Source: Prochlorococcus sp. AG-409-P01
Lineage (GTDB): Bacteria > Cyanobacteriota > Cyanobacteriia > PCC-6307 > Cyanobiaceae
Direction: 5' to 3'
Assembly: GCA_003215335.1 (NCBI GenBank)
Contig: QCKM01000002.1
Span: 1-64,000 of the forward strand
Length of the DNA: 64,000 nucleotides
Shown: one piece after another, positions 41,593 to 43,874 of the stretch
Position numbering within the stretch: position 1 is the stretch's first letter
Layout of the letters: every line of letters begins with the position of its first letter
Notes under the pieces: generated by a model
Told to the model about the DNA's origin: nothing
What the model saw: the letters and a program-made list of their open reading frames with translations, nothing else
Database searches by the model: none
Position numbers and translations under genes: made by a program

Positions 41593-42576
41593 ATGTTGAA
41601 TAATTTGTCTAAGGCAGCTTCAGAAGAGGAGAAGATCTGGGTTGTGGCGGCTTGTTTTAATGAAGAGGAACTGATTTGTGAGTTTATTCAACGGATTGTC
41701 TCTTTGCCTCAGGTGAGTTGCTTGGTTCTAGTAGATGATGGTTCTAGTGATGCCACTGTTGCTCAGATACGTTCTTCCCAAAGAAATTTAATCAGTGAAG
41801 CAGGCAAAGCCAATGTGATTTTGATAGAGCTCACTCGTAATTTTGGTAAAGAAGCCGCAATGTTGGCAGGGTTGGATCATGCGAACGGTCATTGTTCAGG
41901 GGTTGTTTTGATCGATTCTGATTTGCAGCATCCTCCTGATCTGATTGAGGAAATGGTTCATGCTTGGCGAAATGGGGCTGAGATTGTTACAGCTGTCAGA
42001 GATGATCGCGATCAAGAATCACTCTTTAAGGTCGCAACCGCATCTTGGTTTTATAAGGTTTTTAATCGAATAGTTGATTCAATTCAGTTAATTGAGGGCG
42101 CTGGTGATTACCGTCTCCTTAGCGCGCCGGTAGTAGATGCTTTGACCAGGATGCGTGAATTTAGTCGCTTTTCTAAAGGGTTGTTGCCTTGGACTGGTTA
42201 CCGTAGTGTTGAAATTAGCTATAGCCGCTTATCTAGACTTGCTGGGAGAAGTTCTTGGAGTCCAGTTAAACTCTGGAGGTATGCCCTTGATGGAATATTT
42301 TCCTTTTCTGTAGTGCCCTTGAAGATATGGAGCTTTCTTGGATTAACAGTTTCAACAATTAGTCTTTTATATGCATTTTTGATTGTTTTGAGAACTGCAT
42401 TTATTGGTGTTGATGTCCCTGGCTATGCATCATTAATGACAGCTGTTTTATTCCTTGGTGGAATTCAGCTCATAGGAGTCGGAGTTCTTGGTGATTATAT
42501 AGGCAGAATTTATGTAGATGCAAAAGCTAGGCCTCATTATTTTGTTAGGGCTATTCATGGTAAACATCCAGATTAA
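41593..42576 (+). CDS. GtrB/DPM1-like polyprenyl-phosphate glycosyltransferase (GT2)
   Basis: A 327-residue GT-A fold transferase. The nucleotide-binding VDDGSSDAT, the DxD-like IDSDLQHPPDLI and the GAGDYRLLS motif match the DPM1/GtrB/ArnC group, which loads a sugar on undecaprenyl phosphate. Two C-terminal transmembrane segments (about 242-265 and 279-303) are typical of GtrB. The last 4 bp overlap the convergent GtrA-ChbG gene, and GtrA is the usual partner flippase. Confidence 0.93.
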   Translation: MLNNLSKAASEEEKIWVVAACFNEEELICEFIQRIVSLPQVSCLVLVDDGSSDATVAQIRSSQRNLISEAGKANVILIELTRNFGKEAAMLAGLDHANGHCSGVVLIDSDLQHPPDLIEEMVHAWRNGAEIVTAVRDDRDQESLFKVATASWFYKVFNRIVDSIQLIEGAGDYRLLSAPVVDALTRMREFSRFSKGLLPWTGYRSVEISYSRLSRLAGRSSWSPVKLWRYALDGIFSFSVVPLKIWSFLGLTVSTISLLYAFLIVLRTAFIGVDVPGYASLMTAVLFLGGIQLIGVGVLGDYIGRIYVDAKARPHYFVRAIHGKHPD

Positions 42577-43874
42577 TTATATTCTTCTTTGGTAGGCGGG
42601 TTGAATTTTTTCAGTGCATCCCATTCCATTTGTCTCCCACGAGAACTCATAAAGTCAATTGATAGAGTAAACTTTGAGAGTGCAGCATTGAAGATTTCGG
42701 ACTCAGGTTTTGCTCCTGGATGGCTCAAAACTATAGGCTCTGTTTCTAGTCCCCCTGGTGAAAGCATCTTTAGTTCATTCCAGGCACTTTTCAGATTTGA
42801 ATTTGACATTTTTCCAGTAAATAAGACCCCGGAAAAACCTTTATTAGTTCTTAGTCTTGCATTCTTGATCTTAGGTTTTGCAATGAGTGTTAGAAATTGA
42901 AGAATGATCCATTTCAGCCATCTGTTTTCACTCAATATGATAAGCAAGCATCTTAATGAAATTCCGGACGGTAAAGGTTCAGATGCTGTCCTGACCCATT
43001 TGATTTTTGTTGTCTTTGCAAGTTCTAGTATTACTTCCAAGACTATTGGAACAAGATGAATATATTGGTGCCCATCTACCCTGACTGAGGTCATACCAGT
43101 CAGTTCTTTGAAACGAGATATTTGTGCAATCAATTCATTGTGAATTTGTTGTTTTATGTTTCTCCTAAGGATGGAATTTTTTGGGAGAATTGATATTAGA
43201 AGTAATTTTGAAAAAGATGCATTTAGAGTACCATTTTTAGTTGTTAAATCAGTTACTTCATGTTGCTTTGATAGGGTTGGACCTTCCGTCAGGCAGATGT
43301 GCAAACTTAAAGGTATTGAGAGATCATTCTTCCAGCTCTCTAATGCTGAACTTACTGCTGTTCCATTCACAATCAAGCTTGCACTATCTAACTTTCCACT
43401 TTTAGCTAGATCAATGATTGCGGTATTCGTGGCATCAGAAAGGCCGAAATCGTCTGCATGGAGATTGGGTAAGGAATGATTAATCATTTGACGCTTAAGG
43501 CTGAATTTTGCAGCCTTATTCCAGATCAGAGCATTGATAGAAGTTGGGGTAAAAATAAATATCATTGTAGTTAAATTTGAGTCTGCCCATCTGCTTAGAA
43601 CAATAGGTAGCAGCGCGCTAATAGACATATTGACTAGAAATTGAATGATTAACCATCTGCGTGCAAAGCGTTTGCCTAATGTTTCATGCCTAAAAGTGAA
43701 TAAGGCATGGCCTAAATAGCTAACAATAGATGCTGCAAAAAAACCAAATAAATTGCTAAGCCAAAGTGGGAGTACTTGGGAGCAAGCTAATAGGGTGAAG
43801 GCGTGAATCGTTGCTGAAGTTATCCCTACCATTCCATATCGTCCAACTCGCCTTGCGAGATTCAATATTTTCAT
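42573..43874 (-). CDS. GtrA-like flippase fused to a ChbG/YdjC deacetylase-like domain
   Basis: A 433-residue fusion. Residues 1-128 are GtrA-like with four hydrophobic segments (about 14-34, 38-60, 73-94, 102-121). Residues about 133-420 are a ChbG/YdjC-type hydrolase: LHADDFGLSDATN (Asp141-Asp142), LHICLTEG (His192) and VDGHQYIHLVP (His269, His273). The middle histidine of the usual HxHxH is Tyr271. Both GtrA termini are expected on the cytoplasmic face, so the hydrolase would be cytoplasmic. An in-frame Met at residue 130 could serve as a separate start of the second domain. With the convergent GT2 it suggests a polyprenyl-sugar modification unit. Confidence 0.88.
   Translation of the reverse strand: MKILNLARRVGRYGMVGITSATIHAFTLLACSQVLPLWLSNLFGFFAASIVSYLGHALFTFRHETLGKRFARRWLIIQFLVNMSISALLPIVLSRWADSNLTTMIFIFTPTSINALIWNKAAKFSLKRQMINHSLPNLHADDFGLSDATNTAIIDLAKSGKLDSASLIVNGTAVSSALESWKNDLSIPLSLHICLTEGPTLSKQHEVTDLTTKNGTLNASFSKLLLISILPKNSILRRNIKQQIHNELIAQISRFKELTGMTSVRVDGHQYIHLVPIVLEVILELAKTTKIKWVRTASEPLPSGISLRCLLIILSENRWLKWIILQFLTLIAKPKIKNARLRTNKGFSGVLFTGKMSNSNLKSAWNELKMLSPGGLETEPIVLSHPGAKPESEIFNAALSKFTLSIDFMSSRGRQMEWDALKKFNPPTKEEYN

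Follow-up and report, generated by a model that had tools for sequence, protein, structure and literature searches.

In the NaxD/FlmF2/FlmK pathway, the acceptor of the amino sugar is lipid A, at its phosphate. The Arn pathway employs a NodB-type deformylase (ArnD) and an SMR-type flippase (ArnE/F), which belong to families other than YdjC and GtrA. HpnI and HpnK, a GlcNAc transferase and a YdjC-family deacetylase, make glucosaminyl-bacteriohopanetetrol, and LgmC of Bordetella is likewise a YdjC-type enzyme. NaxD deacetylates GalNAc on undecaprenyl phosphate (Und-P), according to PMC10927774. Deacetylation of an Und-P-linked N-acetylhexosamine (HexNAc) by a YdjC-family enzyme is thus already known, and load-deacetylate-flip logic is not new. 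Glucosamine modification of Bordetella lipid A depends on lgmA, lgmB, and lgmC (PMC4993483). Here, we report a computational analysis of two convergent genes in the window (the whole 64,000-nucleotide stretch of DNA analyzed), one encoding a GtrB-type GT2 and the other a GtrA domain joined to a YdjC/ChbG-type deacetylase (Table 1).

Both open reading frames, their convergent orientation, and their 4-bp overlap are as the original prediction had described them. The pair is likely an amino-sugar editing and export module on Und-P, which would load, deacetylate, flip, and transfer its sugar. Computation supports this reading through the arrangement of the domains, active sites that are complete, the predicted topology, the conserved pairing of the two genes, and co-varying residues. 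Because the genes are convergent, they are not co-transcribed, and an operon reading was dropped.

Table 1. Features of the GT2 gene and the GtrA-YdjC fusion gene (window positions)
Feature	Position	Strand	Basis
GtrB-type GT2, 327 aa	41593..42576	+	Pfam/NCBIfam; relatives of solved structure; conserved GtrB catalytic and lipid-handling residues
DSDLQH motif, GT2 residues 108-113	41914..41931	+	Alignment
4-bp overlap of the convergent genes at their stops	42573..42576	.	ORF coordinates
GtrA-YdjC fusion, 433 aa, one uninterrupted frame	42573..43874	-	ORF, Pfam, conservation in relatives, AlphaFold2
GtrA membrane domain, residues 1-128, four helices, predicted N-in/C-in	43491..43874	-	Pfam PF04138; AlphaFold2; loop charges
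GtrA His56	43707-43709	-	Alignments
YdjC/ChbG-type deacetylase domain, residues 133-427	42594..43478	-	Pfam PF04794, E 6e-43; top fold match ChbG 7vi8
Asp141-Asp142, general base and metal ligand (ChbG D10, D11)	43449..43454	-	Invariant in 11/11 and 21/21; ChbG roles PMC9402603
His192, metal ligand (ChbG H61)	43299..43301	-	Alignments; ChbG roles PMC9402603
His269, metal ligand (ChbG H125)	43068..43070	-	Alignments; ChbG roles PMC9402603
His385, probable general acid (ChbG H206; matched by motif and order only)	42720..42722	-	Invariant in both alignments

Assignment of the GT2 to the GtrB/ArnC type was upheld by Pfam/NCBIfam and by relatives of solved structure, the nearest being GtrB of Synechocystis (sll0501; E 5e-83), followed by ArnC (E 2e-39). 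Aligned to GtrB, the window GT2 retained the DXD (D108/D110) and the catalytic D172 (GtrB Asp157), and R136, K146, A150, Y154, R215, L227, A231, and R305 corresponded to R122, K132, A136, Y140, R200, L212, A216, and R290 of the GtrB lipid path. All features by which we recognized GtrB/ArnC polyisoprenyl-phosphate GT2s (DXD, catalytic Asp, and eight lipid-path residues) were therefore present. GtrB is inactive when lipid-path residues are mutated (PMC4728340). From its sequence, the window GT2 is predicted to charge Und-P with a HexNAc; that its nearest solved relative is glucose-specific counts against this reading. The enzyme might instead act on a phospholipid or other glycolipid, the product staying as a cationic membrane lipid, as in Pseudomonas, where the synthase-deacetylase-flippase set GpgSDF makes glucosaminyl-phosphatidylglycerol (PMC12713373). 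This is very unlikely, as GpgS (GT4), GpgD (COG3233), and GpgF (YbhN) are of other families than the window's proteins, and the window GT2 retains the residues that have been assigned to the Und-P path in GtrB.

The proposed union of GtrA and YdjC/ChbG in one frame was verified by a Pfam domain search of the 433-aa protein, which placed GtrA at residues 12-97 (E 2e-9) and YdjC at residues 138-422 (E 6e-43). The GtrA match scored 38.3 bits (gathering cut-off, 26.1) and, together with the four helices, identifies a GtrA-family domain; it covered columns 1-89 of the 117-column PF04138 profile, with columns 90-117 unmatched. Structure prediction with AlphaFold2 (based on a 21-sequence alignment; mean pLDDT, 91; pTM, 0.83) gave four long helices (2-31, 37-64, 72-92, and 100-129) followed by the hydrolase domain, and the best fold match of the model was the deacetylase ChbG (PDB 7vi8). 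Lys plus Arg counts in the GtrA loops were 4 at the N-terminus, then 0, 5, and 1, then 4 past the fourth helix. By the positive-inside rule, both GtrA termini are predicted to be cytosolic, which would put the hydrolase on the side of the GT2 catalytic domain and agrees with the cytosolic hydrolase of the original prediction. ChbG binds its metal through D11, H61, and H125, with D10 and H206 proposed as base and acid (PMC9402603). The corresponding set in the fusion (D142, H192, H269, D141, and probably H385) is complete and invariant in two alignments (11 and 21 fusions), so that the metal site (D142, H192, and H269) ascribed to the hydrolase is present in full.

Among 60 relatives, the fusion was found full length in 11 genomes (including the window's own), with the frame intact and a GT2 ortholog adjoining it in all 11 (61-76% identity in the other ten). 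Within 300 family genomes, 72 carried the fusion, 72 the GT2 ortholog (455 bits or more, against 345 for the next GT2), and 70 both; the fused frame was intact in about 70. Since it recurs in this way in relatives and family genomes, the fusion is not an assembly artifact, and the expectation that other genomes would carry it unbroken beside the GT2 was borne out. The two genes were convergent in 70/70 genomes with both and within 100 bp of each other in 67, and the same arrangement was seen in 22/22 named loci (GTDB genomes of Prochlorococcus, Synechococcus, Cyanobium-like strains, and Vulcanococcus). Two genomes had the fusion and no GT2 ortholog: in G074, a different GT2 (30% identity), also with the His at position 113, occupies the same convergent place, and in G309, the contig ends there. 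Two others (G142 and G153) had the GT2 with the YdjC part broken or missing, and their GT2s are without an otherwise invariant Arg. The GT2-fusion pair is a real, conserved unit.

A reading in which the two genes are mere neighbors, their order kept by slow genome rearrangement, would fit their convergence and the synteny of the flanks (icd side and heme oxygenase side) in most carriers. It is nonetheless most improbable: the pair stays joined where the flanks differ (L045, L078, L081, L160, and L161), both genes have decayed in G020, the two lie far apart in 0/70 genomes, and separate-gene triads and fusions recur in other phyla.

Some carriers show local variation. At the G153 and G142 loci (L148 and L149), the GT2 frame is still open, the invariant Arg is gone (GAGDYRLL to GAGDQLILL), and the module may be in decay or being put to another use. 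In one close relative, a 342-aa protein without a Pfam match (L036 11549-12577) overlaps the GT2 gene start by 4 bp. In several Synechococcus loci (L071 3799-4545, L076 4364-5137, and also L070, L075, and L080), the fusion start is abutted or overlapped by an MTA/SAH nucleosidase gene, its function having been scanned in L071 and L076; this phosphorylase-like gene was considered as HpnG and rejected as an ordinary MTA/SAH nucleosidase.

Outside the cyanobacteria, GT2, GtrA, and YdjC occur as separate, tight same-strand neighbors in gamma- and betaproteobacteria (L089, L134, L205, L206, L213, L215, L220, and L241). Those from L205 onward come from a class-wide sample (185 genomes around Herminiimonas, with GT2s picked irrespective of YdjC), which held near neighbors in other genomes. 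An uncultured bacterium carries a reverse-order YdjC-GtrA fusion with a GT2 directly upstream (L092 5980-7236), and Deltaproteobacteria carry GT2-YdjC fusions, confirmed with Pfam and with no GtrA seen, from a separate fusion event (L103 5278-6894 and L110 1649-3445). That these partners have been fused independently is good evidence for joint action of GT2, GtrA, and YdjC. That the three activities form one module, as originally proposed, is thus backed by convergence in 70/70 genomes, the separate-gene triads, and the independent reverse fusion.

Two residues track linkage to YdjC. His113 of the GT2 aligns with Asp99 of GtrB and His94 of PfDPMS, at the donor-sugar contact position; Asp99 is predicted to contact O3 of glucose, and the position has a donor-sugar contact role in DPMS (PMC5526996). 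All 38 fusion-linked GT2s have His there. Asp is found in the sister GT2s of the cyanobacterial family (L144-L146, L157, and L158), which adjoin a stand-alone GtrA and no YdjC, and in the glucose GtrBs of Synechocystis and P22, so the window GT2, with His113, departs from the glucose-specific type, which has Asp at the O3 contact. In the class-wide sample, His113 was present in 13/15 readable YdjC-linked GT2s versus 10/65 unlinked ones (p 1e-6, uncorrected for phylogeny), the remaining unlinked GT2s having mostly Asp, or Asn as in ArnC types. Cyanobacterial fusion-linked GT2s nest in the tree among Asp-type enzymes, away from the proteobacterial YdjC-linked clade, and His113 therefore seems to have arisen more than once. 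When His113 and YdjC linkage were compared in a phylogeny-aware pair test, power was too low (about three of eight pairs informative) and the outcome was not significant (median p 0.25), with all informative pairs agreeing in direction. By alignment, His113 argues against a glucose donor and fits HexNAc rather than proving it, because mannose-using DPMS also has His there.

The same position bears on whether the substrate could be an N-acyl sugar other than a simple HexNAc (e.g., 4-acetamido or formamido, as in Arn), with the same logic and a different product. The relationship of the GT2 to ArnC and the ArnT-like transferases at two loci would suit such a sugar, but ArnC-type GT2s have Asn113 and the fusion partners His113, like the GT2 of Francisella-type loci (L109 and L127), and ChbG-type hydrolases deacetylate N-acetylhexosamines. 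We regard it as quite unlikely.

At GtrA position 56, His was found in 9/11 YdjC-linked versus 2/17 unlinked sequences (p 4e-4, uncorrected for phylogeny) and in every fusion of both cyanobacterial alignments, with Asn in P22 GtrA and Gln in the reverse fusion (L092). GT2 113 and GtrA 56 would serve as two single-residue markers for predicting donor-sugar type from sequence. GtrA flippase activity is unproven for the family and is disputed for the mycobacterial GtrA protein Rv3789 (PMC7389260), and flipping by the fusion is accordingly termed putative. The GtrA domain could merely be a membrane anchor or scaffold keeping the deacetylase by the GT2 while another protein flips. A case has been made that Rv3789 anchors rather than flips (PMC7389260), the fused GtrA diverges at its C-terminal end, and a tether would look like a deacetylase fusion. 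Set against this, the GtrA domain of the fusion holds strongly invariant positions in 21/21 sequences, its residue 56 differs between YdjC-linked and unlinked proteins, as expected if it meets the sugar, and glycosylation in Listeria and Bacillus needs GtcA. An anchor alone is, in our judgment, unlikely.

Modification of hopanoids in the manner of HpnI/HpnK would agree with HpnK being the top NCBIfam model for the YdjC domain (E 9e-31), yet that match reached 107 bits against a cut-off of 232.6. Squalene-hopene cyclase was absent from 11/11 fusion carriers among the 60 relatives, and only G005 had it among 37 family genomes searched; there, a separate stand-alone YdjC lies beside a B12-binding radical SAM gene. 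With the HpnK score short of its cut-off and the carriers not being hopanoid genomes by this measure, a hopanoid role is scarcely credible and, barring an unrelated cyclase, is refuted for these genomes. The stand-alone YdjC genes of G005 and G296 (L055 10459-11346 and L155 6945-7829; the L055 copy being the one beside the radical SAM gene) look like HpnK/HpnJ hopanoid loci.

For amino-sugar editing on Und-P, we infer the identity of the sugar, the order of the steps, the flipping, the final transferase, the acceptor, and the charge given to the surface glycan as follows. The GT2 would move an N-acetylhexosamine from a UDP-sugar to Und-P at the cytosolic face. Held against that face by the GtrA domain, the YdjC domain would strip the acetyl group with its Zn-type Asp/His/His site, and the GtrA domain would carry the Und-P-hexosamine outward across the membrane. 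Transfer of the amino sugar to an envelope glycan, which may thereby gain positive charge, would fall to a GT-C enzyme (ArnT-like or DUF2079-like) whose gene lies outside this locus in the window genome. In a stricter form, the fusion would be a coupled deacetylase-flippase whose GtrA domain takes only the deacetylated, positively charged Und-P-hexosamine, with His56 and His113 as a matched recognition set, so that editing would gate export; in its separate-gene form, this module would supply the flippase of many proteobacterial NaxD-type pathways. We offer this form tentatively and think it rather doubtful.

Candidates for the terminal transferase come from linked genes in other carriers. In two Cyanobium-like loci (L078 and L079), an ArnT-like GT-C protein ends 7 bp before the fusion start; in L078, the ArnT-like gene scanned was the one directly upstream of the fusion, and in L079, it was a second one further upstream. 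In the window genome, the pair has no linked terminal transferase, and PMT_2 and DUF2079 proteins are encoded away from it; a close homologue of the L078 gene was rejected as the transferase here, with no match in that genome at E <= 1e-20. In L082-L084 (L082 8183-9874 and L084 7016-8686), the GT2 gene shares a 4-bp overlap with the gene of a DUF2079 membrane protein, and a further DUF2079 protein lies divergently beside the fusion in L161 (8519-9946). DUF2079 was not retained as the terminal transferase, being also common in genomes without the fusion; a literature search returned nothing on DUF2079. On another contig of the window genome, outside the window, a cluster holds two DUF2079 proteins, one PMT_2 protein, and a GT2 match (G000:C3:218342-224216), and it is a likely source of periplasmic glycosyltransferases. 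In marine Synechococcus WH8102 and CC9311, lipid A is reported without phosphate, and the LPS contains some glucosamine and galacturonic acid (PMC4515613). The acceptor here is therefore probably not lipid A phosphate.

Under this reading, the envelope of Prochlorococcus and marine Synechococcus, organisms with little-known surface chemistry, should carry an amino-sugar decoration. By joining GtrA to a deacetylase, the fusion also suggests which protein may be the flippase in those NaxD-like pathways that, in other bacteria, influence polymyxin sensitivity.

Among the known systems, GpgSDF and HexSDF (synthase, deacetylase, and flippase) combine activities of the kinds proposed here, with other protein families and a glycolipid product. 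The HpnI/HpnK system is unlike the window in that fusion carriers are without squalene-hopene cyclase. LgmABC, likened here by description rather than by sequence, shares a glucosamine modification and is unfused. The three-component Gtr systems (GtrA, GtrB, and a GT-C) have a GT2 and a GtrA of the same families, and every mapped catalytic and lipid residue is also present in P22 GtrB. Gtr systems have no deacetylase, and in P22 the residues at GT2 113 and GtrA 56 are Asp and Asn, where the window has His at both. Arn (ArnC, ArnD, ArnE/F, and ArnT) is alike in loading, deacylating, flipping, and transferring, and unlike in the Asn113 of ArnC and in its NodB-type ArnD and SMR-type ArnE/F, the fusion domains being YdjC and GtrA. 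The Arn-like logic of the original prediction stands to that extent and gains from the ArnT-like gene beside the fusion in two Cyanobium-like loci; its further claim, that such logic with a YdjC-type hydrolase was undescribed, gives way to the NaxD precedent (PMC10927774) and to the Francisella-type YdjC/GT2 loci recovered in our search (L109 and L127). A full-text search of open papers returned none naming both GtrA and YdjC. NaxD/FlmF2/FlmK (Francisella; NaxD also in Acinetobacter) is alike in having a deacetylase that acts on Und-P-linked GalNAc. We take the Francisella-type locus to be NaxD/FlmF2 from its gene order and the gene numbers in PMC8149597. Its YdjC protein, so taken as NaxD, is 28% identical to the window domain over 260 residues, and its neighboring GT2 shares His113. 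Of the marks of a NaxD-type locus, the window has YdjC/GT2 adjacency and His113, and a GT-C at the locus (FlmK/ArnT-like) occurs in L078 and L079. The Francisella system differs in its separate genes, free of a GtrA fusion; it is this GtrA fusion, with the co-varying residues, that appears to be new here.
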